A DNA stretch of 64,000 bases. Origin: Pelobacter sp. Lineage in GTDB: Bacteria; Desulfobacterota; Desulfuromonadia; Geobacterales; Pseudopelobacteraceae. Each line of letters begins with the position of its first letter. The stretch's first letter is position 1. Position numbers and translations under genes: made by a program. Positions 5,529 to 23,132 of this stretch are shown in pieces. The stretch covers positions 124,001 to 188,000 of the forward strand of contig JAVBXN010000008.1 of the NCBI GenBank assembly GCA_030824515.1. Direction: 5' to 3'. The notes beneath the pieces are model-generated. The model was not told the DNA's origin. It did not search any database and saw nothing but the letters and a program-made list of their open reading frames with translations.

Positions 5529-7313
5529 CTACCACAGCGTGGCATCGGACCGGATCTTCTCATCCTCCCAGTCGCGCCAGACCACCTGGTGCTTGATCAG
5601 GTAGTGATCGACCGCCTGGCCGATGGTGGGGAAAAAATTCTCCATGCCCAGCCTGGCGAACAGGCCGTAACGTTTGAGGTGATCCTTGACCGGTCCCTTC
5701 ATCTGCGCGAAACACAATTCAATCCCGGCCTGCTGCAGCTCCGCGACCAGTTCCGCCAGCACGTCGGCGGCCGTGATATCCACGTCAGTGACCGGATCGG
5801 CGGCGACCACAATCCACCTGGTCGGCGTCGGCGCGCTGGTCACCGCCCGCAGCGCCTGCTCCCGGAAATATTCGGCATTGGCGAAGAACAGCGGCGCATC
5901 CCACCTGAACAGCACCAGTCCCGGAATCCGCCGCGCCTCGGGGTGACGGGTGATATCGTGGTAGCCCTTCATGCCGTCAACCCGTCCCAGAACGGCACAG
6001 TGCGGACGCCAGGCGCGCCAGATGAAAGCCAGCAGCGCCAGGCCGACGGCAATGAAGATGCCCTGGATCACGCCCAGCAGGGCAACCCCCAGCAGACAGA
6101 CTAAGGACAGAAAAAACTCACCCCGGCGATGATAGTACAAGCGCCGCACCGCGGAAAACTCCACGATGGAGCTGCAGGCGGAAATTACCACCGCGCCCAG
6201 GGCGGCAGTGGGGAGATGGATCATCAGACGGGGCGCGAAGATCAGCAGCAACGCGATGCAGGTCGCGCCAACCACGCCGGTCATTTGCGTTTTTGCGCCG
6301 GCGGACTCGGCCACCGGAGTACGCGAAGAGCTGCTGCTGATAGGATATCCCTGAAAGAGCCCGGTGGTCAGATTGGCGATGCCCAGGGCGACCAGTTCCT
6401 GGTTGTCGTCCACGTAATAACCACCCCGTAGCGCATAGATTCGCGACAGCACACTCATGTCGGTGATCGAGACCAGTGCGATCGCCACCGCGCCGGCGCA
6501 TAGCGCCTTGAATTCTTCCATGGTAACCAGCGGAAAACTGAAACTGGGCAGCCCCTGCGGCAGCGCCCCGACGGTGGCAATTCGCGCCTGGGTTGCCGGA
6601 TCTGACAACCCGACCGCCAGCGTGGCTCCCACCACGGCGAACAACACGCCGGGCCAGCGCGGCGCCCAGCGTTTTGTGCCGAAAATGACCGCCAGGCACG
6701 AAACGCCGATGGCACAGGTGCTCCAGTTGATGCGACCATTCAGAACGCCATGCGCGAGTCCCACCGATGACTGGATAAAGCTGGCGCTCTCCACCGAAAA
6801 GCCGAAGACCTTGGGCAGCTGCCCGATCAGCAGCGTCAGCGCGATTCCGTTCATGTACCCGTAGCGGATCGGCTTGGAGAGCAGGTCGGTCACGAATCCG
6901 AAACGGGCCAGACCGGCCAGGATGCAGAGCACACCGGTTATAACCGCCAGCATTGCGGCCAGCGCCGCGGCATGCACGGGACCGCCGGCGGCCAGCGGCA
7001 GGATGGTGGCGGCGATCAGTGCCGTCAGCGCCGAATCCGGCCCCAGCACCAGGATACGGCTCGGCCCGAACAGCGCATAGGCCAACAGCGGAATGATCGT
7101 GGCATACAATCCGTAGATCGGGGACAGGCCGGCCGCCTCGGCATAACCCATACCGACCGGGGCCAGGAGCGCAGTCAGCGCCAGGCCGGCCACCAGGTCC
7201 TGCGAGAACAGGGCACGATCGTAACGGGCCAGCAAAGCCATACCGGGCAGCCAGCGGCGCAGGCCGTGTGTGCGGGCATGGCGGATCAATGTAGCGGCAG
7301 TTTCAGGCGCCAT
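5529..7313 (-). CDS. SulP-family anion transporter with C-terminal STAS domain
   Basis: 594 residues. The N-terminal two thirds carries many hydrophobic segments and the SulP signature region AGLSPIYGLYATIIPLLAYALFG (about residues 60-85). The last 120 residues form a STAS domain (RWIVVAADPVTDVDITAADVLAELV). SulP proteins move sulfate, bicarbonate or other anions across the inner membrane; the substrate cannot be read here. The start at 7313 gives an N-terminal helix before the first membrane segment. A terminator belonging to the chemoreceptor gene lies just upstream, so this gene probably has its own promoter. Confidence 0.9.
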   Translation of the reverse strand: MAPETAATLIRHARTHGLRRWLPGMALLARYDRALFSQDLVAGLALTALLAPVGMGYAEAAGLSPIYGLYATIIPLLAYALFGPSRILVLGPDSALTALIAATILPLAAGGPVHAAALAAMLAVITGVLCILAGLARFGFVTDLLSKPIRYGYMNGIALTLLIGQLPKVFGFSVESASFIQSSVGLAHGVLNGRINWSTCAIGVSCLAVIFGTKRWAPRWPGVLFAVVGATLAVGLSDPATQARIATVGALPQGLPSFSFPLVTMEEFKALCAGAVAIALVSITDMSVLSRIYALRGGYYVDDNQELVALGIANLTTGLFQGYPISSSSSRTPVAESAGAKTQMTGVVGATCIALLLIFAPRLMIHLPTAALGAVVISACSSIVEFSAVRRLYYHRRGEFFLSLVCLLGVALLGVIQGIFIAVGLALLAFIWRAWRPHCAVLGRVDGMKGYHDITRHPEARRIPGLVLFRWDAPLFFANAEYFREQALRAVTSAPTPTRWIVVAADPVTDVDITAADVLAELVAELQQAGIELCFAQMKGPVKDHLKRYGLFARLGMENFFPTIGQAVDHYLIKHQVVWRDWEDEKIRSDATLW

Positions 7314-7427
7314 CAGTGGTGTACCTCGCGGGTTCTGTCGCTGTTCCTGGCATGTCGCGGCGGATTATATCATCTTGATTGCAGGCCTACAATCCCGCAG
7401 TTCCGCAAATCTTTACGCCAGAAAGAA

Positions 7428-7455
7428 GAGGGGGCTCCCTTTCGGGGGCCCCCTC
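7428..7455 (-). terminator. Hairpin terminator after the chemoreceptor gene
   Basis: Strong GC hairpin, GAGGGGGCTCCC paired with GGGGGCCCCCTC around TTTC, 40 bases past the chemoreceptor stop. Confidence 0.75.
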
Positions 7456-7494
7456 ATTATATGCAATGTCTCCAAATGGATTGATCGGAAAGGA

Positions 7495-9153
7495 TTACAG
7501 TTTGAACTGCCTGACCAGACGCTGAAGCTCTTCGGCGTTGCCGCTCAATTGCGCGGCGGCGGTGGCGGACTGGTGAGCACCGGCGGCGGTGTCGTGCACC
7601 ACCTGGGTGATCTGCTGCATGTTGTTGGAGATCTCGCTGGTGGTAGCGGTCTGCTCTTCGGCGGCGGTGGCAATCTGGTGCACCTGCGTAGCCACATCGT
7701 TAACCTGTTCCAGGATATCCCGCAGCGCGTGGCCCGATCTGGCCGCTTCGGTCGTACCGGCTTCCACCTGCTGTACGCCCTGCTCCATTGCTGCCACGGC
7801 CCCTTTGGTCTCTTTCTGGATCGCCTTGATCATCTCGCCGATTTCCTTGGTGGCGCGCGTTGTACGCTCCGCCAGGGCACGGACTTCATCGGCAACGACC
7901 GCGAAGCCGCGCCCCTGCTCACCGGCACGGGCAGCCTCGATGGCGGCATTCAGCGCCAAAAGATTGGTCTGGTCGGCAATATCCTCGATCGTGCCGATGA
8001 TGGCCCCGATCTGGTCCGAACGTTCCCCCAGGCTCTCGACCGTTTTGGCCGATTCCTGTACCCGCTCGGCGATCTGCCCCATCACGGCAACCGTTCTCTC
8101 CACTACCTCGGCTCCGTTGCTGGCCGACTGGGAGGCCCGCTGGGCCCCTTCGGCGGCCATCTGGCAGTTCTGGGCGATGTCCCCGGAGGTGGCCGACATC
8201 TCTTCTCCAGCGGTGGCAACGGTGCCGGCCTGCGCAGCAACCTCCTCGGCTCCGGTGGCAATCCGCTCGGCGGTTGAATTCAGCTGGCAGGAGGCGGCCG
8301 CCACCTGGGTCGAGGTATTGGAAATCATGCTGATTATTCCATGCAGCTTATCCAGGAAGCGGTTGAACATGCGGCTGATTTCGGCAATTTCGTCCTGTCC
8401 GGAAGCATCCATGCGCTTGGTCAGGTCCCCTTCGCCCTGGGCGATGTCGGAAACGCGAGTATAGAGGTCGTTAAGCGGCTTCCTGATCGAAGCGATGATG
8501 ACGACACTGATGATGGCCGCCAGAATCAGCGCCAGCAGCGACAGGCCGATCAGCACCGAAATGATCCGTTTCTCAAAGACAACCGACTCCTTGAGCCCCT
8601 CTTCCATCATCTTGTCGATCGACTCGGAGAATTCCTGGACCTTGGTTTCCAGCTTGTGGATCGGCTCCTTGTAGACCGCCAGCGCAGCATTGGCATCCCG
8701 GGAGGTTTTCAGCTCACCGGCCTTGATACTGTCGTACACCTTGCCGAAGCCGCCGGTATAGGCAGCCAGTTCATTCCGGATTTCCACGATGGAGGCCTTG
8801 CCCTTGCCGGCAACCGCCTGGTCATGCAGTTCACCCAGAAGTTTATCAATGGCATCCAGGCGCTTGTTGCTGCGTTCCAGCTGCTCATCAAATTTCTTGC
8901 GATATTCCGCCACTTTTTCAGGTGAATCGATATTCAGGAAGATATCCTTCTCATAGCGGCGTAGCCCCAGGATATTGGCTCTTGTGCGCTGGGCATTTTC
9001 CACCAGCTTGGACTCCTTGACAGCAAGGACATCAAGTTCACTCTGCATGCTGTTGATACCCCAGTAGCCAACTCCGGCCAGAGCGGCAATGAACAGGCAG
9101 AGCAGGGTGAAGCTGATAATGAGGCGCGTTCCGATCTTCATATTCGATAGCAT
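7495..9153 (-). CDS. Methyl-accepting chemotaxis protein
   Basis: 552 residues. Inner-membrane chemoreceptor with an N-terminal membrane segment (residues 10-30), a periplasmic four-helix-bundle sensor of about 150 residues, a second membrane segment near 190-215 ([21 protein letters not shown]), a HAMP domain, and a long cytoplasmic signalling helix. The hairpin tip is recognisable from [20 protein letters not shown] and [16 protein letters not shown], the CheA/CheW contact region. The ligand is not predictable. No CheR-binding pentapeptide is seen at the C-terminus. Confidence 0.93.
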
Positions 9154-9574
9154 ATACTGCTCCTCCCAAGCTTGATGTAAACATTAAAAAACACAACAAA
9201 CACGGTTTTGTCAAGAATTTAAACCGGCTAAAGCCCCAACATATCAGGCAATTGCCCATCATTGACGCAGCATTAATGTTAAGAACCCGTTATCATTAAA
9301 CATTATTTTTAATTAGAAAGACAACAGTTTCGAATAAGGACCGGGACCAGCATTTTAACTCTGAAACGGTACCAAAAGCAGCGACAGTGCCGAACCAGCA
9401 AGCAGGGTTTGAGTTGCGGGACTAATCCAGCGCCCCCCACCCCTGTCGAAATACTTTACAAACCCTATACGGCTGATTTAGCAGTAAAAAAACATGCCAT
9501 GATTCCAATTTATTACAAGACTAGCATGCATTTTGCATCAGTCAAGACACCACTATTTGTTAGAAGGGGGTAAT
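9154..9574. other. Divergent intergenic region, chemoreceptor to PEP-CTERM gene
   Basis: About 420 bases of AT-rich DNA holding the promoters of two divergent genes. I saw no convincing sigma-54 element, riboswitch or repeat. A TTGACA lies on the minus strand near 9209-9214, but no good -10 hexamer follows it. Confidence 0.4.
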
Positions 9575-10261
9575 ATGAAATCGATACTGTCGAGAATCAT
9601 GCTGACTACAGCATTGCTGTCGATTTTTCCCGTAGTTGCCTTCGGTTACACCTATAATCTCGGCACCTCCTTCAGCAATTCGGTGATTCCGGATGGCTCG
9701 GGCCCATGGCTGACCATCAGCATCAATGACGCCGGGACCGACACCGTTACGCTGGATATCCAGGGCAACATGGTTGACATGCCCACTACCGACCCCCAGA
9801 AGATCAATGATATCTACCTGAACTTTTCCAATACCAGTCTCCTGTCGAACCTGAATTTCACATTCGTGTCCGGGCAGTTTGGCGCTGAGAGCATTTCGCT
9901 GTCCACCAACGCCTATAAGGCCGACGGGGTCGGCGGCTACTTCGACATACTGATGCAATGGAAACCAAACAAACCGATCGACGGCACCGACCATATCGTC
10001 TACTCGATCACCGCCGCCGGTTTGACCGCGGCCATGTTCAACGACACCTGCGTCAACTACGGAACGCCTCCCGGCCCGCTGTATGCCGCGGCCCATCTCC
10101 AGAACGCGGGTTTCGACTCATTCGGCAACTTTGACAGCACCTGGATCGGCGACATTCCCGACGATCCGCCTCCTGCCGTACCGGAACCCGGAACCCTGGT
10201 CCTTCTGGGAGCGGGCCTCCTGGGCCTCGCCGCTTACGGCCGCAAGAGGATCAGCAGGTAA
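9575..10261 (+). CDS. PEP-CTERM sorting-domain secreted protein
   Basis: 228 residues from the ATG at 9575, chosen over the upstream frame start because a strong AGAAGGGGG ribosome site lies just before it and a clean signal peptide follows (MKSILSRIMLTTALLSIF..., cut near AFG). The body is a beta-rich exported domain. The C-terminus has the full PEP-CTERM signal: VPEPG, a hydrophobic stretch (LVLLGAGLLGLAAYG) and RKR. Such proteins are sorted by exosortase (EpsH/XrtA types) in bacteria making exopolysaccharide. No exosortase is in this window. Confidence 0.88.
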   Translation: MKSILSRIMLTTALLSIFPVVAFGYTYNLGTSFSNSVIPDGSGPWLTISINDAGTDTVTLDIQGNMVDMPTTDPQKINDIYLNFSNTSLLSNLNFTFVSGQFGAESISLSTNAYKADGVGGYFDILMQWKPNKPIDGTDHIVYSITAAGLTAAMFNDTCVNYGTPPGPLYAAAHLQNAGFDSFGNFDSTWIGDIPDDPPPAVPEPGTLVLLGAGLLGLAAYGRKRISR

Positions 10262-10293
10262 GGAGTCCTTGGTCGAAATAACTTACACATGCA

Positions 10294-10322
10294 AAAAGGG
10301 CCGCCCAATCGGGCGACCCTTT
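10294..10322. terminator. Bidirectional terminator
   Basis: Hairpin AAAGGGCCGCCC / CGGGCGACCCTTT with A-rich and T-rich flanks, between the converging PEP-CTERM and dtd genes. Confidence 0.8.
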
Positions 10323-10348
10323 CGCTTATCCGGATACGGAACGTTCGA

Positions 10349-10786
10349 TCATCGCTCCAGAACGAACGTGACCGGTCCGTCGTTGACCAGCTCCACCTGC
10401 ATGTCGGCCTGGAAGATGCCGGTTTCAACCGGCAGACCGAGCCGCTTGGCCGCGCCGACGAAATATTCATAGAGCCGCTGCCCTTCGTCCGGTGGAGCAG
10501 CGCTATCGAAGGAGGGGCGCTTGCCCTTGGAGCAGTTGCCGGCCAAAGTGAACTGTGAAACCACCAGCAGCGCGCCGCCGATGTCCCGCACCGAAAGGTT
10601 CATCTTGCCCTGCTGATCGCTGAAGATCCGCAAGCCGGCGATCTTCTCCGCCAGCCAGTCGGCCCGTGCCTCGGAATCGCCCTTTTCAACCCCCAACAGC
10701 ACCATGATGCCCTGCCCGATCCGGCCGGCAACCACGTCCTCAACGGTTACGCTGGCCGATTTTACCCTCTGAATGACCGCTTTCAT
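10349..10786 (-). CDS. dtd: D-aminoacyl-tRNA deacylase
   Basis: 145 residues, the standard size. DTD removes D-amino acids wrongly charged to tRNA. Both family motifs are present: SQFTLAG in the middle and NDGPVTF near the C-terminus (the Gly-Pro active-site motif). The ATG at 10786 gives the canonical [15 protein letters not shown] start; the longer open frame upstream only overlaps the regulator gene. It is the last gene of the minus-strand group that starts at 17599, 32 bases after the response regulator. Confidence 0.95.
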
Positions 10787-10818
10787 CGCAAGCCTCGCCT
10801 GTAATGTGTGATTGAACA

Positions 10819-12342
10819 TCAACGTGTCAAATTGAACAATTCGATTTTTCTGTAAAGCGTGTTCCTGCCGACACCCAGAATCCGGGCTGCTTCGGTGATA
10901 TTCCACTTGCAAAGCTCCAGGGCATTTCTGACAGTCTCTTCTTCCGATTCCCTGAGACCGAGGTGGGCAGACTCGGCCCATCCCTTTTCACGCATCACCG
11001 CAAGCAATACGCCCTCGATGTCGCGCAACGCGCGGAGCGTACGTTCAATCTCTTCAGGAGCGGAACTGTCAAATACATCGTTACCAGCCAACTGATCCCG
11101 GAACTTTTCAAGCAACTGCAGAAACCCGGCCGCCCCGTTGATCACCTGGGACGATGAAATCAACGTCGCCGGGGATACGGCTTGAAAGCGGTTGTTCAAG
11201 TGGCCGGGCAGAATGGTTTCGTCGGGGCACATCACCACGGCCCGCCGCATGACGTTGGCCAGTTCGCGGATGTTGCCCGGCCAGCTGTGGTTTTGCAGCA
11301 AACGCATGGCCGCCGCAGACACTCTTGCCCGGGGATTGAACAGCCGTGCAAAGTGTTCCACCAGCATCGGTACATCTTCACTGCGCTGCTGCAGGGAGGG
11401 GATCTCCAGGCGGACCACATTGAGCCGGTAGAACAGATCCTCACGGAAGGTCTTCTCTCGAATGGCCTCTTCCAGGTTCACGTTGGTAGCGGCAATCACC
11501 CTTACATCCGTTTTTATAGGCCGTTCGCCGCCGACCCGCATGAACTCGCCGGTCTCCAGCACCCGCAACAGCTTCACCTGGATCATCGGACTGGCGTCGC
11601 CGATCTCATCCAGCAGCAGGGTACCATGGTTGGCCAGCTCGAAAATGCCGCGCCGGGTCTGGTTTGCGCCGGTAAAGGCGCCCCGTTCATGGCCGAACAG
11701 TTCACTCTCCAGCAGATTTTCCGGCAGCGCGCCGCAATTGACCGGGATGAAGGCCGCCTCGGCCCGGTTCGAGGCGGCATGGATGAAGCGGGCCAGCACC
11801 TCCTTGCCGGTGCCGGTTTTTCCCTGGATCAGTACATTGATGTTTTTGCCGGCCACCTTGTAGGCCAGCGACACCAGGCGTCGCATCAGTGGCGAACCGC
11901 CCACCTGGAAGCCAACCGCGCTGGCAACGTCGGCCCATTCCTCCCGGGCCTGTTCCCCCTTTGGCCCGGGTTCGCCGCTGGCAACAGCCCTGGCAATCAA
12001 TGCCTCGATTTCGCCAATATCGTCGAACGGCTTCTCCAGATATTCGTAGGCCCCCCGCTGCATGGCCGTCACTGCGGTTTTGACCGTGCTGTAGCCGGTC
12101 ATGATGATCACTTCGCAGTCGGGCTGCCGGGATTTGATCGCCTGCAGCAGCGTCAGACCGTCGGTGTCCGGCAGTTTCAGATCCACCATGGCCACGCTGA
12201 AAACGGTCCCGGACAGCGCTTTCAACGCATCCGCTTCATTGGTTGCGGTGGTTACCTGATAACCTTTTCTGGTCAGCATCCGGCGGAAAAAACCGCAGAC
12301 ATCCGCTTCGTCGTCGATGATCAATATCTGTTTGCGCGACAT
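10819..12342 (-). CDS. Sigma-54-dependent response regulator (NtrC type)
   Basis: 507 residues. There is an N-terminal receiver (LIIDDEAD, phospho-Asp in [10 protein letters not shown]), then an AAA+ domain with Walker A GKTGTGKE and the sigma-54 contact loop GAFTGA. A Fis-type helix-turn-helix closes the protein ([23 protein letters not shown]). I choose the ATG at 12342 ([14 protein letters not shown]); the frame is open to 12378. An inserted stretch of about 60 residues between the AAA+ and HTH parts is less conserved. It pairs with the kinase upstream and sits after the alcohol dehydrogenase and NfnAB-like genes, so it may control fermentative redox genes; this is inferred. Confidence 0.92.
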
Positions 12343-12367
12343 GATTCCCTTCTTTCCCCCGACATCA

Positions 12368-14023
12368 TCACTGGTCAATCGGCAGCACCAGCGAAAAGGT
12401 GCTCCCCTGGTCCGGTGCGCTGATTACCTCGATGGTTCCGTTATGGGAATCGGCGATCCCCAGGCTGACCGACAGCCCCAGCCCGGTCCCCTTGGTGGCT
12501 TCCTTGCTGGTATAGAACGGAGTGAAGATCCTGGGCCGGTTTTCCGGGGGAATGCCGATCCCGTTATCGGCCACGCTCAAAACCGCCCAGCGTTTCCCTC
12601 CCGTCACCCGCACCTCGGTTGCGACCTCTATCTGTTTTTCACGCCCTTTCACCTCGTTCAGGGCGTCCCTGGCGTTGATCAGGAGATTGGTCAGGACCTG
12701 CTGAATCTGGGGGCCATTGGCGGTCAGACAAGGCAGGTCCGCCGCCAGGCGCTCCACAATTGTGATCTGGCTGCGGTTGATCTGGTACTTGATCATGCCC
12801 AGCACCCTGCGGGCCTCTTCATTCAGGTCGATTACCGTTGCCGGCTGCTGGTCCTGGCGGGAAAAGGTCAGCAGGTTCTGGATGATCCGCTTGCAGCGCA
12901 GCCCCGAATTGACGATGTCGTCAACCTCGGCGGCCCGTTCGGACTGGCCATCATCCTGCAGTTCCCTGGCCACCAGCTGGGCGGTGCCGATGATCACGGT
13001 CATCGGGCTGTTCAGCTCATGGGCCACACCGGCCGCCATTTCCCCCAGCGCCGCCAGTTTGGCCGACTGGATCAGCTGCCCCTCCATTTTTATCTTCTCG
13101 GTGACATCCTTGAGGATGATCGTTACCGCCGAAAGCTCCCGCTTCTCGTTCAACACCGGATAATAGGACAAATCCAGAACCAGCCCGGACTCGGTCTGCC
13201 AGCGCTGGTAGAACGGCTTGCGGCTCCGCTGCACCTCGCGGATCGGGCAATCCTGGCAGGGTTCCTTGCGGCCGTGCAGTTTGGCAAAGCATTTCCGGCT
13301 AAGCGACTGATCCCAGAAGAACTGCATCTCGGCCGGCAGCCGGCCGTTATGCAAAAGCACATTGTAGTCGGTATCCACCAGGAAAATCGGGTCGGTCACC
13401 GCCATGAAGGTCGATTCCCACTCCTCCTTGGCCCGCGAGACCTGCTTGTACAGCCTGGCGTTCTGGATGCTGATCGATAGCTGATCTCCCAGATGCTCGA
13501 CGAAGTTGAGATCGTTTTTATCATAGGCTTCAACAGTTCCACTGGCAACAATCAGGGCGCCGATCACCTCGTCGCGCTTGAACATCGGGGCGATTGCCAA
13601 TGAACGGAGCGGCCCCGGATAGGCCGGGTTGATGCGGATATGCCTGAGCTCATCCGGAGAAAAGTTGAAAATCTCGGCGCGTTTCTGCTGTATCACCTTG
13701 AGAGAGGGGGAGTGGGCCGGAAAGTCGTCGATGCGGCAGAAGTCCGACGGCTGCAGTGCCTTGAGGAGCAAGCCGCTGCTCTTGATCGCCACCAGTCCCA
13801 TGAAATCGCACGGCAGGGTCTGGGGAAGTTTGGAGAAAGCCCTTTCGACGATGTCGGCGATCGACATGTCGATATTGATATCGCGGGAGAGCTGGCGCAG
13901 GATCTCCAGGCGGCTGTTCTGCTTCAGCACCTCCTGGTTGCGCTTTTTAAGCTCGACGTAATAGTTGAGCTTGGACGAATCGACTCCGGTCAGCTGTTCC
14001 AGCAGTTTTTCCCGATTATCCAC
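12368..14023 (-). CDS. Cytoplasmic GAF/PAS sensor histidine kinase
   Basis: 551 residues with no clear membrane segment. A GAF domain (about residues 35-190) is followed by a PAS-type domain near 205-310 with a Cys-rich patch (KCFAKLHGRKEPCQDCPI). The dimerisation/phospho-acceptor helix has GVAHELNSPMTVI, and the ATPase domain has N, G1 and G2 boxes (NARDAL, DNGIGIP, GTGLGLS). The four cysteines in the PAS region could hold a metal or redox cofactor, which would suit a redox sensor beside redox enzymes; that is inference. It is the likely partner of the regulator downstream. Confidence 0.9.
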   Translation of the reverse strand: MDNREKLLEQLTGVDSSKLNYYVELKKRNQEVLKQNSRLEILRQLSRDINIDMSIADIVERAFSKLPQTLPCDFMGLVAIKSSGLLLKALQPSDFCRIDDFPAHSPSLKVIQQKRAEIFNFSPDELRHIRINPAYPGPLRSLAIAPMFKRDEVIGALIVASGTVEAYDKNDLNFVEHLGDQLSISIQNARLYKQVSRAKEEWESTFMAVTDPIFLVDTDYNVLLHNGRLPAEMQFFWDQSLSRKCFAKLHGRKEPCQDCPIREVQRSRKPFYQRWQTESGLVLDLSYYPVLNEKRELSAVTIILKDVTEKIKMEGQLIQSAKLAALGEMAAGVAHELNSPMTVIIGTAQLVARELQDDGQSERAAEVDDIVNSGLRCKRIIQNLLTFSRQDQQPATVIDLNEEARRVLGMIKYQINRSQITIVERLAADLPCLTANGPQIQQVLTNLLINARDALNEVKGREKQIEVATEVRVTGGKRWAVLSVADNGIGIPPENRPRIFTPFYTSKEATKGTGLGLSVSLGIADSHNGTIEVISAPDQGSTFSLVLPIDQ

Positions 14024-15346: not shown

Positions 15347-17599
15347 TTACCCGGCCAGATATTTGTTGATCGCTGCGGCAGCCTGCTTGCCGTCACCCAT
15401 GGCCAGGATCACCGTGGCGCCGCCGCGAACGATGTCGCCACCGGCAAAGGTGCCCGGAATGCTGGTGGCGCCGCTCTCATCCACCGCGATATTGCCCCAT
15501 TTGTTCAGTTTCAGATCGGGAGCGGTGGCGGTCAGGAGCGGGTTAGCCCCGGTGCCGACCGCATTGACCACCACATCCGCCGGAATATCGTACTCCGATC
15601 CGGCCACGGCCAGCGGCTTGCGGCGCCCCGATTCATCCGGCGGCCCCAGTTCCATGCGTTGGCAACGCAGCGTGGCCGCCCACCCCTCCGCGCTGCCGAG
15701 GATCTCCAGCGGTGCGGTCAGCATCACGAACTCGACCCCCTCCTCCTTGGCGTGCTTGATCTCCTCGATCCGGGCCGGCATCTCCGCCTCGCCGCGACGG
15801 TAGATGATCATGGCCCGCTCGGCGCCCAGGCGGCGGGCGGTGCGAACACAGTCCATGGCGGTGTTACCGCCGCCGATGACCGCCACGTTGCGACCGGCGA
15901 TGATAGGAGTGCAGGAGTCGGGGTTGCGGCCGGCCTCCATCAGGTTGACCCTGGTCAGCAGCTCGTTGGCGGAATAAACGCCTTTCAGGTTCTCGCCGGG
16001 GATGTTGAGCATGGTCGGCAGGCCGGCGCCGTTGGCGATGAAGATCGCGTCGAATTCCTGATTGAGCTGGTCCAGGGTCAGGGTCTTGCCGATGATCACG
16101 TTGCACTCGATTGTCACCCCCAGCTCGACCAGTCGTGCCACCTCGGCATCGATGATCTCCTTGGGCAGCCGAAACTCGGGGATACCGTAGCGCAATACGC
16201 CGCCGGTGTCATGCAGAGCTTCGAAAAGAGTAACGCCGTGTCCATGCCGGGCCAGTTCACCGGCCGCGGTCAGTCCGGCCGGCCCGCAGCCGACGATGGC
16301 GACCCGCTTGCCGCTGGCCGGCGGCTGCTTCTCTTTGGGAAGCTCGGAAACATTGGCCATGGCCCAGTCGGCCACGAAACGTTCCAGATAGCCGATCGCC
16401 ACCGGCTCCCCCTTGACACCGCATACGCAGCGGGCTTCACACTGGCTCTCCTGCGGGCAGACCCGGCCGCAGACCGCCGGCAATGCGTTGTCCCCCCGCA
16501 GGATCAGCGCGGCTTTGACCAGTTCCTCGGCGGCCAGCGCATCAATGAATTCCGGGATTGACACTCCCACCGGGCAACCCTCCACGCAGGGACGGTTCTT
16601 GCAATGGATGCAGCGCTGCGCCTCACGTACCGCCTGATCGTAATCCAGCCCCAGGTTGACTTCCTCGAAGTTGCGGCTCCTGGTCTCGGCATCGAGTTCG
16701 GGCATGTGCACCCGCGGTATGGCCAACCGCTCCTTGACGCTCAGCTTGTCAAGCGTCACATCCAGCGCCAGCTTGCACTCGCTGGCGGCATGGCGGGCCT
16801 GCTCCTCGAAGCTGCGATAGGTGGTGAGCCGGTCCGAGAGGCCGTCGAAATCCACCAGGTGACCATCGAACTCCGGGCCATCCACGCAGGCAAATTTCGC
16901 TACCCCGCCGACAACAACACGACAACCGCCGCACATGCCGGTGCCGTCGATCATGACCGGATTCAGGCTGACAATGGTCTCGATGTGGTCAGGCCGGGTC
17001 AATTCGGCCACAGCGCGCATCATCGGCACCGGCCCGACCGCCAGCACCACCCGGGGCGACCGTTCGGGAGAGGCGATCAGGTCGGTCAGCTCGGCGGTAA
17101 CAAATCCCTTGCGGCCCAGGCTGCCATCCTCGGTGGTGATCAGCAGCTTTTCCGAAAGCGCCGCCAGTTCATCGGCCAGGATGATGTACTGGCTGGAACG
17201 CCCGCCGATGATGGTGGTAACCCGGTTGCCGGCGGCAGCCAGGGCCTTGACCAGAGGGTAGAGCACCGCTGTGCCGACTCCGCCGCCGACGCAGGCGACC
17301 CGGCCCCAGTTCTCGATATGGGTCGGTTGCCCCAGCGGGCCGGCCACGTCACGGATGAAGCCCCCCGCCGGTATGGCTACAATTCTGCTGGTTGAAGCGC
17401 CGATGGCCTGGATGAAGAGCGTGATGGTGCCGGCGGCCGGGTCGGCATCGCCGATGGTCAGGGGAATCCGCTCCTGACCCTTGTCCGCCCGTACGATGAC
17501 AAACTGCCCGGCCTTGCGCGCCAGGGCCACCCGTGGTGCATGAACCACCATTTTGTGGAGGTTCGGCGCAAGAATATCGTTACTGATTACTTTGAACAT
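15347..17599 (-). CDS. Fused NfnA/NfnB-like flavoprotein (ferredoxin:NADP oxidoreductase / SudBA type)
   Basis: 750 residues. The N-terminal 280 residues are a ferredoxin-NADP reductase-like subunit with FAD and NAD sites and a C-terminal 2Fe-2S cysteine set (GTGMCGGCRVVVGG..FACVDGPEF), as in NfnA/SudB. The remainder is the glutamate-synthase small-subunit type NfnB/SudA, with ferredoxin-like cysteines (CIHCKNRPCVEGCPV), GCGPAGLTAAGELA for FAD and GGGNTAMDC for NADPH. In related anaerobes these two parts are separate genes; here they are one chain. Electron bifurcation between NADH, ferredoxin and NADPH, or sulfide dehydrogenase activity, are the family functions. Beside an alcohol dehydrogenase, redox balancing seems likely. 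Confidence 0.88.
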   Translation of the reverse strand: MFKVISNDILAPNLHKMVVHAPRVALARKAGQFVIVRADKGQERIPLTIGDADPAAGTITLFIQAIGASTSRIVAIPAGGFIRDVAGPLGQPTHIENWGRVACVGGGVGTAVLYPLVKALAAAGNRVTTIIGGRSSQYIILADELAALSEKLLITTEDGSLGRKGFVTAELTDLIASPERSPRVVLAVGPVPMMRAVAELTRPDHIETIVSLNPVMIDGTGMCGGCRVVVGGVAKFACVDGPEFDGHLVDFDGLSDRLTTYRSFEEQARHAASECKLALDVTLDKLSVKERLAIPRVHMPELDAETRSRNFEEVNLGLDYDQAVREAQRCIHCKNRPCVEGCPVGVSIPEFIDALAAEELVKAALILRGDNALPAVCGRVCPQESQCEARCVCGVKGEPVAIGYLERFVADWAMANVSELPKEKQPPASGKRVAIVGCGPAGLTAAGELARHGHGVTLFEALHDTGGVLRYGIPEFRLPKEIIDAEVARLVELGVTIECNVIIGKTLTLDQLNQEFDAIFIANGAGLPTMLNIPGENLKGVYSANELLTRVNLMEAGRNPDSCTPIIAGRNVAVIGGGNTAMDCVRTARRLGAERAMIIYRRGEAEMPARIEEIKHAKEEGVEFVMLTAPLEILGSAEGWAATLRCQRMELGPPDESGRRKPLAVAGSEYDIPADVVVNAVGTGANPLLTATAPDLKLNKWGNIAVDESGATSIPGTFAGGDIVRGGATVILAMGDGKQAAAAINKYLAG

Positions 17600-17725: not shown

Positions 17726-18094
17726 TTAGGCGGCTGAAGCCGTCTGATTGAAAATCACTTCGGACTTGAACAGCTGGAAGGCTGCGCGCATCAGCTCGGA
17801 AGCGCCCTTGTTGGTAGCCCGCATCATCTCCTGTATTCGCAGCATTTCGTCGTCGGAAATACGCATGGAAACCACGTAGGGTTTTTGCGGATCACTGTAC
17901 TTGCCCCTGGGCCGGCCCACTTTTCCCCGGACCACCGGGATTTCCGCTTCCAACAGGCTGACCTGTCGCTGCCCGCTTCCGGCGTGGGCATCCCCGGTCA
18001 CGCCATGTTCCTGTTGCAATACTACCCGGGGTGCCGGCTGTTTGCTTTCTCCTTTGGTCTCACCGATACGGACGCCAATAACCTTCTCTCCCAT
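17726..18094 (-). CDS. MOSC-fragment / DNA-binding chimeric regulator
   Basis: 122 residues from the ATG at 18094, which has a GAGAGGAGAG ribosome site. The first 60 residues look like the beginning of a MOSC domain (VIGVRIGETKGESK, EHGVTGDAHAG, RQVSLLEAE), the sulfur-carrier domain linked to molybdenum cofactor chemistry. The domain stops there and the rest is a short basic linker (GRPRGKYSD) and a likely ribbon-helix-helix-type segment (KPYVVSMRISDDEMLRIQEMM...ASELMRAAFQLF). This suggests a transcription factor with a molybdenum- or tungsten-cofactor-related sensor. It is divergent from the alcohol dehydrogenase and near the pterin-dependent AOR. Function is inferred. Confidence 0.65.
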   Translation of the reverse strand: MGEKVIGVRIGETKGESKQPAPRVVLQQEHGVTGDAHAGSGQRQVSLLEAEIPVVRGKVGRPRGKYSDPQKPYVVSMRISDDEMLRIQEMMRATNKGASELMRAAFQLFKSEVIFNQTASAA

Positions 18095-18301
18095 TTTGCT
18101 CTCCTCTCCTGTCGGTTCCATTGTCCACCCATGCAAGCACGAATGAACGCCTGGAACAACTGCAAGGCAATTTCAATACCACTTTTCCTCATTAGTTTAC
18201 GGAACAGATGGCCGGGAACATGCCAGACCGCCCAGGAACAGTGATTACAGGAAAATGAGATGCCATTTGAGGCCGGCTGCAGGCTTGCTTCCAATTCCGA
18301 A

Positions 18302-18381
18302 AACAGTGCCGGAGCACTGTTCACAAACGTAACGCCTGTTACGTATCGATACGATTGCACTGTTCTACATTAGAACAGTGC
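18302..18381. promoter_or_regulatory. Cluster of operator-like dyads upstream of the adh sigma-54 promoter
   Basis: Three dyads: AACAGTGC-N4-GCACTGTT (18302-18321), ACGTAAC-N4-GTTACGT (18327-18344), and GCACTGTTCTA-N3-TAGAACAGTGC with perfect 11-base arms (18357-18381). The first and third share GCACTGTT and are likely sites of a sigma-54 enhancer-binding protein. The middle one is a different sequence and could bind the divergent MOSC/RHH protein. Spacing to the -24 element is about 100-180 bases, normal for enhancer sites. Confidence 0.7.
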
Positions 18382-18483
18382 CTGTGGAGCACCTGACACT
18401 CAGCCAACCATGCCAGCGGATAACATGCTGAATACAAAAGACAAAGCACAGGGTGACTTTTCCGGACGCCTCTCATGAAACAG

Positions 18484-18500
18484 TTGGTACAGGGCTTGCG
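18484..18500 (+). promoter_or_regulatory. Sigma-54 promoter of the alcohol dehydrogenase gene
   Basis: TTGGTACAGGGCTTGCG: the -24 GG and -12 GC are exactly 10 bases apart and most of the consensus TGGCAC-N5-TTGC is kept. Transcription would begin near 18511, about 95 bases before the ATG at 18606. Confidence 0.78.
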
Positions 18501-18605
18501 ATGACCTGAAAAAACGTTCTACGAAACCGTATGCACACAACCGGTTCATGTCGGTTACGAAAACAGGGGCAGAACACCCAATCAAACCAAGAGGAGGAAG
18601 TACAC

Positions 18606-19769
18606 ATGGCTTTGGCAGATCAGACATTCGGTTTTTACATCCCCACCGTTTCATTGATGGGCGTAGGTTGTTCGAAGGAAGCAGGAGAGCAGGCCAAGGC
18701 GCTGGGCGCCACCAACCTGCTGATCGTCACCGATGCCGGATTGGCCAGGATGGGCGTGGCCGACACGATCAAGGGCTACATCGAGGCAGCCGGCCTCAAG
18801 GCTGTCATCTTTGACGGCGCCGAACCGAACCCGACCGACAAGAACGTGCATGACGGCGTCAAGGTCTACCAGGATAACCACTGCGACGGCATCGTTTCCC
18901 TGGGCGGCGGCAGCTCCCATGACTGCGGCAAGGGCGTCGGCATGGTGATCGGCAACGGCGGCAACATTCGCGATTTCGAAGGGGTCAACAAATCCACCAA
19001 GGCCATGCCACCATTCCTGGCCATCAACACCACCGCCGGCACCGCTTCCGAGATGACCCGCTTCTGCATCATCACCAACACCGATACCCACGTCAAGATG
19101 GCCATCGTCGATTGGCGCTGCACACCCAACATCGCCGTCAACGACCCGGTCCTGATGGTCGGCAAGCCGCCGGCGCTGACCGCCGCCACCGGCATGGACG
19201 CCCTGACCCACGCGGTCGAGGCCTATGTTTCCACCATCGCCACCCCGATCACCGACGCCTGCGCCATCAAGGCCATCGAGCTGGTTGCCCGGTATCTGAG
19301 CCCGGCCGTGGCCAACGGCGAGAACCTGGAAGCCCGTGACAAGATGGCCTATGCCGAGTACCTGGCCGGCATGGCCTTCAACAACGCCAGCCTCGGTTAT
19401 GTCCACTCCATGGCCCATCAGCTGGGCGGTTTCTATAACCTGCCCCACGGCGTCTGCAACGCGATCCTGCTCCCGGCCGTCAGCCAGTACAACCTGATCG
19501 CCTGCCCGCAGCGTTTCGCCGACATAGCCGTCGCCATGGGCGAAAACATCAGCGGTCTTTCGGTGATGGAAGCGGCCGAGAAGGCCATCGGCGCGATCCG
19601 CAGGCTCTCGGCCTCGATCGGCATCCCCACCGGGCTCAAGGCGCTGAATGTGAAGGAAGAGGATCTGAAGGTGATGGCAGAAAACGCCAAGAAGGACGCC
19701 TGCCAGTTCACCAACCCGCGCAAGGCGACCCTGGAGCAGGTGGTGGAAATATTCAAGGCAGCCATGTAG
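18606..19769 (+). CDS. Iron-containing alcohol dehydrogenase, sigma-54 controlled
   Basis: 387 residues from the ATG at 18606, which has a strong AGGAGG site; the longer upstream frame is non-coding leader. Group III alcohol dehydrogenase with GGGSSHDCGKGVG nucleotide motif, GTASEMTRFCII, and the iron-binding region GMDALTHAVEAY, ASLGYVHSMAHQLGG and LPHGVCNAILLP. It resembles well-known ethanol/1,3-propanediol-type dehydrogenases of anaerobes. With the AOR downstream it could form an alcohol to aldehyde to acid route. A hairpin terminator follows at 19786. Confidence 0.93.
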   Translation: MALADQTFGFYIPTVSLMGVGCSKEAGEQAKALGATNLLIVTDAGLARMGVADTIKGYIEAAGLKAVIFDGAEPNPTDKNVHDGVKVYQDNHCDGIVSLGGGSSHDCGKGVGMVIGNGGNIRDFEGVNKSTKAMPPFLAINTTAGTASEMTRFCIITNTDTHVKMAIVDWRCTPNIAVNDPVLMVGKPPALTAATGMDALTHAVEAYVSTIATPITDACAIKAIELVARYLSPAVANGENLEARDKMAYAEYLAGMAFNNASLGYVHSMAHQLGGFYNLPHGVCNAILLPAVSQYNLIACPQRFADIAVAMGENISGLSVMEAAEKAIGAIRRLSASIGIPTGLKALNVKEEDLKVMAENAKKDACQFTNPRKATLEQVVEIFKAAM

Positions 19770-20185: not shown

Positions 20186-21916
20186 ATGAACAAAATAATC
20201 CGCATCAACATGAACGACCTGAGCACCAGGATTGAAGACGTACCCGCAGCCTGGGCCGGCCTGGGCGGGCGCGGTCTGACCTCAACCATCGTCGCGGCGG
20301 AAGTGCCGCCCACCTGCCATGCGCTGGGGCCCAACAACAAACTGGTCTTTGCTCCAGGCCTGCTGACCGGCACTCCGGCCGCCAACTCGGGCCGCCTATC
20401 GGCCGGCGCCAAGAGCCCGCTGACCGGCACCATCAAGGAGAGCAACGCCGGCGGCACCGCCGCCCAGATGCTGGCACGCCTTGGCATCAAAGCCTTGATC
20501 ATCGAAGGCATTCCTGCTGAAGACAAGTGGTACAGCCTGCACGTCTCGATGGACGGTGTCGCAATCCGGGAAGAGAGCGAACTGGTCGGCAAATGGAATT
20601 TCGCCGTGATCGAAGCCATCGAAGCGCGGCTTGGCAAGAAAACCGGCATCCTGACCATCGGTCCGGCCGGCGAAATGAAGATGACCGCGGCCAACATCTC
20701 GGTCAAGGACCCGGACAGCAAGATCCGCAGCCATGGCCGCGGCGGCCTGGGCGCCGTGATGGGCTCCAAGAAGATCAAGTTCATCTCCATCGACGACCAG
20801 GGCGCTCCCAAGGTGCCGATCGCCGATCCGGAAAAGTTCAAGACAGCCGCGCGGGTCTTTGCCAAGGCCCTGATGGATCATCCGGTCAGCGGCGAAGGCC
20901 TGCCGACCTACGGCACCAACGTGCTGGTCAACATCCTCAACGAGGCCGGCGGCCTGCCGACCCGCAACTTCACGTCCGGACGCTTCGACGGGGCCGACAA
21001 GATCTCCGGCGAGACCATGAACGAAACCATCACGGCCCGCGGCGGCAAGGTCAAACACGGCTGCCACGCCGGCTGCATCATCCAGTGCTCGCAGGTCTAC
21101 CACGACCAGCAGGGCAAATACGTAACCTCCGGCTTTGAATACGAAACCATCTGGGGGCTGGGGGCGGACTGCTGCATCGACAACCTGGACGACATCGCCC
21201 GCGCCGACAGCCTGATGGACGACATCGGCATCGATTCGATCGAAACCGCGGTCATGTTCGGAGTAGCCATGGAAGCCGGAATCCTGCAGTGGGGAGACAG
21301 CAGGGAGATGCTGCGTATTCTGGCCGAGGAAATCGGCCGGGGCACTCCGCTCGGCCGCATCCTGGGAGGCGGCGCCGGCTCGGTCGGCAAGACCTATGGC
21401 GTCACCCGCGTACCGGTTGTAAAAAACCAGGGCATCCCGGCCTACGACCCCCGTTCGGTCAAGGGCATCGGCATCACCTACGCAACCAGCACCATGGGCG
21501 CCGACCACACCGCCGGCTACACCATCGCCACCAACATCCTCAACGTCGGCGGCTATGTGGATCCGCTCAAGAAAGACGGCCAGGTCGAGCTTTCCCGCAA
21601 CCTGCAGATCGCAACCGCGGCGGTGGACTCCACCGGCATGTGCATCTTCATCGCCTTCCCGGCGTTGGATATCCCCGAATGCCTGCCGGCGCTGATCGAC
21701 ATGATCAATGCCCGTTTCGGCATCAGCCTGACCGGCGACGACGTCACCAACCTGGGCAAGCATATCCTCAAGGTCGAGCGCCAGTTCAACATCGAGGCCG
21801 GTTTCAGCAACATCCACGACCGCCTGCCCGAGTTTTTCACTACCGAAAAAGTGGCGCCGCACAACGCCATCTGGGATTTCAGCGGTGACGAAATCGACGA
21901 GTTCTGGAATTTTTAA
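20186..21916 (+). CDS. Aldehyde:ferredoxin oxidoreductase family, tungsten/molybdenum pterin enzyme
   Basis: 576 residues, slightly short for the family (about 600). AOR enzymes oxidise aldehydes to acids, or the reverse, with ferredoxin, using a bis-pterin W or Mo cofactor and one 4Fe-4S cluster. The N-terminal domain has the family pattern WAGLGGRGLTS and GPNNKLVFAPGLLTGTPAANSGR. Cluster cysteines are CHAGCIIQC near residue 293. GREM-like and DP..KGIGITYATSTMGADHTAG pterin-binding stretches follow. A GGGAGAAG ribosome site precedes the ATG. It is followed by dedicated MoaD- and ThiF-like genes, suggesting its own cofactor supply. Confidence 0.92.
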   Translation: MNKIIRINMNDLSTRIEDVPAAWAGLGGRGLTSTIVAAEVPPTCHALGPNNKLVFAPGLLTGTPAANSGRLSAGAKSPLTGTIKESNAGGTAAQMLARLGIKALIIEGIPAEDKWYSLHVSMDGVAIREESELVGKWNFAVIEAIEARLGKKTGILTIGPAGEMKMTAANISVKDPDSKIRSHGRGGLGAVMGSKKIKFISIDDQGAPKVPIADPEKFKTAARVFAKALMDHPVSGEGLPTYGTNVLVNILNEAGGLPTRNFTSGRFDGADKISGETMNETITARGGKVKHGCHAGCIIQCSQVYHDQQGKYVTSGFEYETIWGLGADCCIDNLDDIARADSLMDDIGIDSIETAVMFGVAMEAGILQWGDSREMLRILAEEIGRGTPLGRILGGGAGSVGKTYGVTRVPVVKNQGIPAYDPRSVKGIGITYATSTMGADHTAGYTIATNILNVGGYVDPLKKDGQVELSRNLQIATAAVDSTGMCIFIAFPALDIPECLPALIDMINARFGISLTGDDVTNLGKHILKVERQFNIEAGFSNIHDRLPEFFTTEKVAPHNAIWDFSGDEIDEFWNF

Positions 21917-21990: not shown

Positions 21991-22024
21991 TAAGAGTTTC
22001 AGGCTTATTGCTGATGGAGCGTGT

Positions 22025-22249
22025 ATGCAGGTAACCGTCAAACTATTCGCCACCTTCAGAAACGGGCGCTTCAAGGTCACTTCGCAAGAGCTTACCGAGG
22101 GCACTGCCTGCCGTACGATCATGCTCGGCCTGGAGCTGACCGAAGAGCAGATCGGGGTCGTGCTGGTCAATGGCCGGCATGCGGCCCTCGATCAGGGATT
22201 GCATGAAGGAGACACCCTGGCGCTGTTTCCCCTGGTCGGTGGAGGTTGA
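22025..22249 (+). CDS. MoaD/ThiS-type sulfur carrier protein
   Basis: 74 residues from the ATG at 22025 (MQVTVKLFATFR). It is a ubiquitin-fold small sulfur carrier with the essential C-terminal glycines (FPLVGGG). The carrier is adenylated and thiocarboxylated by an E1-like enzyme, and gives sulfur to molybdopterin. The E1-like gene follows after one base. Its place behind the AOR gene suggests a version dedicated to that enzyme's pterin. The GGG rather than GG ending is a small variation. Confidence 0.88.
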   Translation: MQVTVKLFATFRNGRFKVTSQELTEGTACRTIMLGLELTEEQIGVVLVNGRHAALDQGLHEGDTLALFPLVGGG

Positions 22250-22250
22250 T

Positions 22251-23132
22251 ATGTTGAATGTGCTGGAATATCTACAGAAGTGTTCCGTCGACGGGCTGTT
22301 GCCCTGGTCCGCTCAGCTGGAGGCGGTCGAGCGTTTGAGCCTGAGCCATGCGGCCGTGGAAGAGATCGCTCTGGTAAGCGGACTGTTGCCGGCCCGCTAT
22401 CAGCGCAACCGCAACATGATCTCCGTGGCCGAGCAGTTGCAGCTCTTCCGGAGCAGGATCGCCGTGATCGGCTGCGGCGGGTTGGGCGGGTACATCATCG
22501 AGGAACTGGCCCGGCTGGGGATTGGCCAGATTGTCGCTGTTGATCCGGATAAATTTGAAGAGCACAACCTCAACCGGCAGTTGTTCTCCACCATCGGCAA
22601 CCTGGGCAGAGCCAAGGTTGCGGCGGCGCTGGACCGGGTCAACGAGGTCAACCCGGCCGTGAAGCTGATCCCGGTCCGGACCTTTTTCCGCGCCGCCAAC
22701 GGCCGGGAGCTGCTGCAAGGGGTGACGGTGGCGGTGGATGCACTGGACAGCATTGCCTGCAGACTGGAACTGGCAGAAACCTGCGCCGGCATGGATATTC
22801 CGATGGTGCATGGCGCAATCGGCGGCTGGTACGGGCATGTGGCCACCCAGCTACCCGGTGACACCACGGTACAGAGCATCTATCGCAATTGGGTGCAAGG
22901 AAAAGGTATCGAAAAGGATCTGGGTAACCCGGCCTTTACTCCGGCGGTGGTGGCAGGACTGCAGGTGGCTGAGGTATGCAAACTTGTTCTGGGCAGGGGC
23001 GAGTTGCTGCGGCGGCGCAAGCTGAGTATCGATCTGCTGGACATGGAGATGCATGAGATCCCCTACCATGCCTCGGCCGAGGTTATCCACTTTCCCACAC
23101 GCGAAATTGAACAGGAAAGGGCCGCAGGATAA
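22251..23132 (+). CDS. ThiF/MoeB/HesA-family E1-like adenylyltransferase
   Basis: 293 residues. It activates the C-terminus of the MoaD-like carrier with ATP. The Rossmann motif GCGGLGGYIIEELARLGIG and the DPDKFEEHNLNRQLF loop (Asp and Arg of the ATP site) are clear, with VDALDSIACRLELAETC in the middle. An N-terminal helical extension of about 65 residues precedes the core. The CxxC zinc pairs found in many MoeB proteins are not seen. The ATG at 22251 follows the moaD-like stop by one base, so the pair is translationally coupled. Confidence 0.88.
   Translation: MLNVLEYLQKCSVDGLLPWSAQLEAVERLSLSHAAVEEIALVSGLLPARYQRNRNMISVAEQLQLFRSRIAVIGCGGLGGYIIEELARLGIGQIVAVDPDKFEEHNLNRQLFSTIGNLGRAKVAAALDRVNEVNPAVKLIPVRTFFRAANGRELLQGVTVAVDALDSIACRLELAETCAGMDIPMVHGAIGGWYGHVATQLPGDTTVQSIYRNWVQGKGIEKDLGNPAFTPAVVAGLQVAEVCKLVLGRGELLRRRKLSIDLLDMEMHEIPYHASAEVIHFPTREIEQERAAG

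Follow-up and report, generated by a model that had tools for sequence, protein, structure and literature searches.

Gene content of the locus

The window, a 64,000-nucleotide stretch of DNA from Pelobacter sp., carries on its minus strand a short open reading frame that lies divergent from the gene for an iron-containing alcohol dehydrogenase (Fe-ADH). This reading frame starts with an ATG at 18094, ends with a TAA at 17726–17728, encodes 122 amino acids and is preceded by a strong Shine-Dalgarno sequence (AGGAGAGGAGAGCAAA-ATG). Its product comprises a segment related to MOSC domains and a ribbon-helix-helix (RHH) part. The genes and protein segments under discussion are:

10819–14023, minus strand: sensor kinase and sigma-54 response regulator, the presumed activator of both sigma-54 promoters (putative target)
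15347–17599, minus strand: flavoprotein (dihydroorotate dehydrogenase electron-transfer subunit/GltA-like fusion), whose gene follows directly after the RHH gene
17726–18094, minus strand: RHH regulator with MOSC remnant, 122 amino acids
17729–17923, minus strand: conserved RHH part (KVGRPRGKYSDPQKPYVVSMRISDDEM..., 65 amino acids), with a profile match, a structure model and invariant residues
17942–18085, minus strand: vestigial MOSC segment, residues 4–51 (VIGVRIGETKG..GVTGDAHAG..RQVSLLEAE), core and Cys motif missing
18606–19769, plus strand: Fe-ADH, divergent neighbour
20186–21916, plus strand: tungsten-type aldehyde ferredoxin oxidoreductase (AOR)
22016–22249, plus strand: MoaD/ThiS-like protein
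22249–23132, plus strand: ThiF/MoeB-type E1

An N-terminal MOSC remnant

Residues 4–51 match the MOSC part of the NCBIfam family NF011069 in a profile search (E 8.4e-12). The same segment aligns at 50% over 48 residues with the complete MOSC protein of its own genome, at a local score of 120 against at most 48 for shuffled sequences (n = 2000), and at 60% over 48 residues with the N-terminus of a full-length MOSC-RHH orthologue from the same locus. The similarity is far above chance in these alignments, and it points to common ancestry of the window protein with the MOSC N-terminus.

The domain itself is incomplete. Pfam MOSC (PF03473) has no match above its gathering score in the window protein, whereas full-length orthologues reach 48–52 bits against a cut-off of 22.7. 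The cysteine motif GKECHTRC is absent from the window protein; it is present in two full-length MOSC loci (L040 and L058), and a third (L059) carries GKECHSRC. In the structure model of the window protein, residues 1–60 have pLDDT values below 50 and are predicted to be disordered; the core of the barrel is missing, and with it a folded β-barrel. The model of the full-length protein of L040 places most of the MOSC domain with confidence, followed by the RHH helices, and its MOSC portion matches structures of YiiM and, weakly, mARC. The window genome also has a complete moaA-MOSC pair away from the Fe-ADH/AOR locus (L047, G000:C48, 7334–8752), so the loss of MOSC from the gene studied here would not need to cost the cell its MOSC activity.

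The RHH part

Residues 75–108 match Pfam RHH_1 (PF01402) at 20.5 bits, which is exactly the gathering score, and the model of this part shows a strand (74–78) and two helices (81–94 and 98–121), i.e., a β-α-α unit. Ser76 and Arg78 of the strand are among the residues that are invariant in the 21 RHH proteins compared; both are consistent with a putative dimer that contacts DNA through its paired strand. A PDB fold search gave weak, non-significant matches to chains of AtaR, CopG and CdbA, and PDB sequence searches gave no useful match. The first-pass annotation had described a truncated MOSC beginning joined to an RHH-type domain, beside an AOR-MoaD-E1 operon; the NF011069, orthologue and RHH_1 matches bear out the first point and the gene order the second. 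The 122-residue protein is an RHH_1-type member, at the cut-off, and as judged from its sequence it appears to be of a DNA-binding type. It was formerly fused to a complete MOSC domain; by the tests applied it is not a MOSC-domain protein, though descended from one.

A graded series of arrangements in relatives

Genome searches, together with the loci extracted from them, yielded a series of MOSC/RHH arrangements. At one end, in other members of the order, MOSC and RHH are individual neighbouring genes of a moaA-MOSC-RHH-etfB-etfA cluster that runs divergently from Fe-ADH-AOR (G011, G026 and G027, and in family f4 G107, G113, G105 and G121; loci L044–L046 and L060–L063); in L045 the RHH gene follows immediately after MOSC, and the etf genes are on another contig (L071). 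Three genomes (G018, G080 and G081) encode one protein of 217 amino acids that has both a complete MOSC domain and the RHH part; G080 and G081 belong to another family than the window. In G018 (L040) the 217-residue fusion occupies the same slot as the window gene: Fe-ADH and AOR run divergently from it, and the flavoprotein gene follows downstream. From the window protein ~95 residues inside MOSC have been deleted in frame, and the first ~51 remain. Two close relatives (G036 and G010), whose genes lie like that of G018 in the syntenic slot of the window gene, encode 98-residue versions with only ~18 MOSC residues and an RHH part identical to that of the window protein. Finally, an RHH gene without MOSC is found at the Fe-ADH locus of G032, G042 and G054 (L065, L069 and L072). 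A phylum-wide sample (395 genomes, strict cut-off) gave no further fusion; G018, G080 and G081 were absent from its matches and therefore not in the sample, which thus says little about rarity.

The trees support a single fusion that was followed by erosion. In the MOSC tree, where the fusions are represented by intact ones only (the window remnant being too short for inclusion), the MOSC parts of all three cluster as one clade (support 100/98). For the RHH parts, intact and eroded fusions likewise make up one clade (98/98), in which the sequences of the window, G036 and G010 cluster with each other. We infer that separate genes preceded the fusion, because the separate arrangement is widely spread.

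The two parts of the window protein are under different constraint. Between the window and G018, the RHH part has dN 0.062 and dS 0.754 (omega 0.08), whereas the MOSC remnant has dN 0.253 and dS 0.685 (omega 0.37, over 48 codons and a span that includes time before the deletion); the same MOSC segment gives an omega of 0.075 between the intact fusions of G018 and G080. Between the window and G036, the 65 codons of the RHH part show no amino-acid change at 99.5% DNA identity, and the first 18 codons are just 86% identical. By these codon comparisons the MOSC remnant is under weaker constraint than the RHH part, although an omega of 0.37 is still below 1.

The divergent control region

The interval between the RHH and Fe-ADH genes (18095–18605) contains the following elements:

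18167–18181, minus strand: sigma-54 −24/−12 promoter of the RHH gene/operon (TGGTATTGAAATTGC), in the same place in 36 loci
18241–18260, no strand: conserved block (GTGATTACAGGAAAATGAGA), lying 63–76 bp from the divergent promoter, in helical phase at most loci
18319–18376, no strand: three-dyad enhancer-like array, consensus GTTCC-N5-GGAAC (dyads 18319–18333, 18338–18352 and 18362–18376)
18327–18344, no strand: palindrome of the first-pass annotation, composed of the right half-site of dyad 1 and the left half-site of dyad 2
18485–18499, plus strand: sigma-54 promoter of the Fe-ADH/AOR operon (TGGTACAGGGCTTGC), conserved across loci
18506–18523, no strand: conserved imperfect palindrome (consensus GTAGAAAACCGTTTTACG), close to where transcription of Fe-ADH is expected to begin

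The dyad starts are spaced 0/19/43 and lie between two divergent sigma-54 promoters in 36 loci, which come from several families. The array scores 23/30 in the window and 20–29 across the 36 loci, against a shuffle maximum of 20 (first 16 loci); its distance from the promoter varies among loci by about one helical turn, being mostly 151–154 or 162–166 bp. The region has what is expected of a sigma-54 enhancer array, namely upstream dyads at fixed spacing with a −24/−12 promoter downstream, and the array fits a sigma-54 activator, for which the kinase/response-regulator pair at 10819–14023 is the simplest candidate.

The palindrome at 18327–18344 had been proposed as the site at which the RHH protein binds. 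We rejected it as an RHH operator, since the array to whose two dyads it belongs also occurs at a locus where no RHH gene was found within 5 kb (L110 of G140); consisting of half-sites of neighbouring dyads, it is more likely part of the site of a sigma-54 activator. Two other blocks in the region are accounted for by neither the promoters nor the array, and may be an RHH operator, an IHF site or another kind of element. That at 18241–18260 is a candidate RHH operator or IHF-type bending site; we do not assign it as an operator because some loci with an RHH gene lack it or have it in weak form, and because it is positioned like an IHF site. The palindrome at 18506–18523 is an alternative candidate operator, left unassigned because it is partly retained in the RHH-less locus.

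Among the 36 Fe-ADH loci that have the array and the sigma-54 pair, 34 have an RHH gene in the divergent operon; in one exception the contig ends first, and in the other (G140/L110) there is no RHH gene within 5 kb. By comparison, Fe-ADH loci without the array have an RHH gene in none of 13 cases, three of these stretches being short. The RHH gene thus accompanies this control region, a co-occurrence that is evidence of synteny and not of binding, because the RHH operon is driven from there. As for the exceptional locus L110 (G140:C62), it keeps the array and the divergent sigma-54 promoter, and a 446-residue radical-SAM-like reading frame fills the divergent slot.

A proposed history and function, and its rivals

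We propose that the RHH gene fused with the MOSC-domain gene next to it on the upstream side of the operon, one that serves the handling of the tungsten/molybdenum cofactor, and that an in-frame deletion then removed most of the MOSC part, the ~50 leftover MOSC residues being an N-terminal tail at most. The RHH part would dimerise and bind DNA within 18095–18605, where it would tune the sigma-54-driven Fe-ADH-AOR-MoaD-E1 operon as well as its own, probably as a repressor or feedback modulator; activation would come from the sigma-54 response regulator at the three-dyad array. We put the probability of this reading as a whole, i.e., an RHH protein fused to a MOSC gene, with MOSC mostly lost, that tunes the local sigma-54-driven operons, at roughly 0.7. 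On its historical side, the sequences show homology to MOSC, an intact fusion among relatives, a series of deletions, one common origin and relaxed constraint; on its functional side, the protein probably regulates the divergent Fe-ADH/AOR operon locally, with putative DNA binding.

Doubts about the premise carry little weight. An accidental MOSC resemblance in a plain RHH protein with an unrelated N-terminus would agree with the missing Pfam MOSC match; it is hardly conceivable in view of the profile, orthologue and shuffle scores given above, is contradicted by the full-length orthologues, and was rejected. Nor do we accept that an assembly or sequencing artefact deleted the middle of a full-length gene, which we regard as highly improbable even for a draft genome of 62 contigs: the join is in frame, and two independently deposited genomes have related but different deletions of their own, with join residues (EIPVVRGK) that match those of the window. 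A different objection concerns function, namely that the RHH part is a DNA-binding protein with no local role, e.g., one that is nucleoid-associated or acts elsewhere in the genome. Further RHH proteins of the same type in the genome, and the CdbA chains among the weak, non-significant fold matches, would suit this possibility, which we think unlikely although far from fanciful; against it, 34/36 loci across families have the gene at the position divergent from Fe-ADH.

The first-pass annotation had itself suggested that the protein could be a cofactor-sensing regulator. On this reading the half-MOSC would have kept the ability to bind a pterin, sulfur or metal species and would thereby modulate the RHH part. 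Retention of the GDAHAG and RQVSLL motifs, neighbours that make and use a tungsten pterin, and intact fusions in two families speak for such a sensor. On the other hand, the barrel core and Cys motif are missing, the segment is predicted to be disordered and is under relaxed constraint, relatives with an identical RHH part have been cut to 18 MOSC residues, and the RHH part occurs alone in other loci. With MOSC whole, halved and nearly gone in relatives, the half seen here is better regarded as a leftover of gene fusion than as a working cofactor sensor; the evidence thus does not support sensing by the window protein, which we consider improbable. The remnant may nevertheless have a residual role, recognisable GVTGDAHAG and RQVSLL being kept. 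As a more speculative thought, and a rather unlikely one, the intact MOSC-RHH proteins of G018, G080 and G081 might be one-component regulators that read the supply of tungsten/molybdenum pterin through MOSC, in which case the sensor would be gone from the window lineage and the DNA-binding part retained.

Relation to known systems

Residues 4–51 of the window protein are homologous to MOSC proteins (PF03473; YiiM, mARC, MoaC-MOSC fusions), but the domain core, the cysteines and the Pfam MOSC match are lacking. With CopG/RHH_1 regulators (PF01402; AtaR, CopG, CdbA) the protein shares the β-α-α unit and an RHH_1 match at the gathering score; unlike them, it has an N-terminal MOSC tail, and its gene sits in a sigma-54-controlled cofactor/alcohol-oxidation locus and not in a toxin or plasmid context. 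Among the papers searched, none has both 'MOSC domain' and 'ribbon-helix-helix', and a broader search of titles and abstracts for MOSC regulator fusions gave no relevant match. An AOR-linked MoaD/MoeB/MoaA neighbourhood has been recorded for Geobacter species (Iyer et al. 2006, PMC1779556); the divergent operon of the window is this known tungsten-cofactor neighbourhood, and the passages that describe it mention neither the RHH gene nor a MOSC-RHH fusion. The ethanol dehydrogenase and tungsten AOR of Geobacter metallireducens are reported as Gmet_1046/1045 (PMC7324539), the same enzyme pair as in the window when likened by name alone; the passages on these two genes do not mention an RHH regulator.

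The arrangements described here document, step by step from separate genes through the full fusion and the half domain to 18 residues, how an enzyme-type domain was joined to a DNA-binding one and later deleted, the DNA-binding part being kept. They also tie an RHH gene to the tungsten aldehyde oxidoreductase/alcohol-oxidation locus of Geobacterales, for which candidate promoters and sites are supplied above. The window genome has a second RHH gene of the same type immediately before an etfB-etfA-FeS reductase operon (L126, G000:C43:115001-135000, 7111–11947 for gene and operon), a gene set that in relatives comes after RHH at the Fe-ADH loci.
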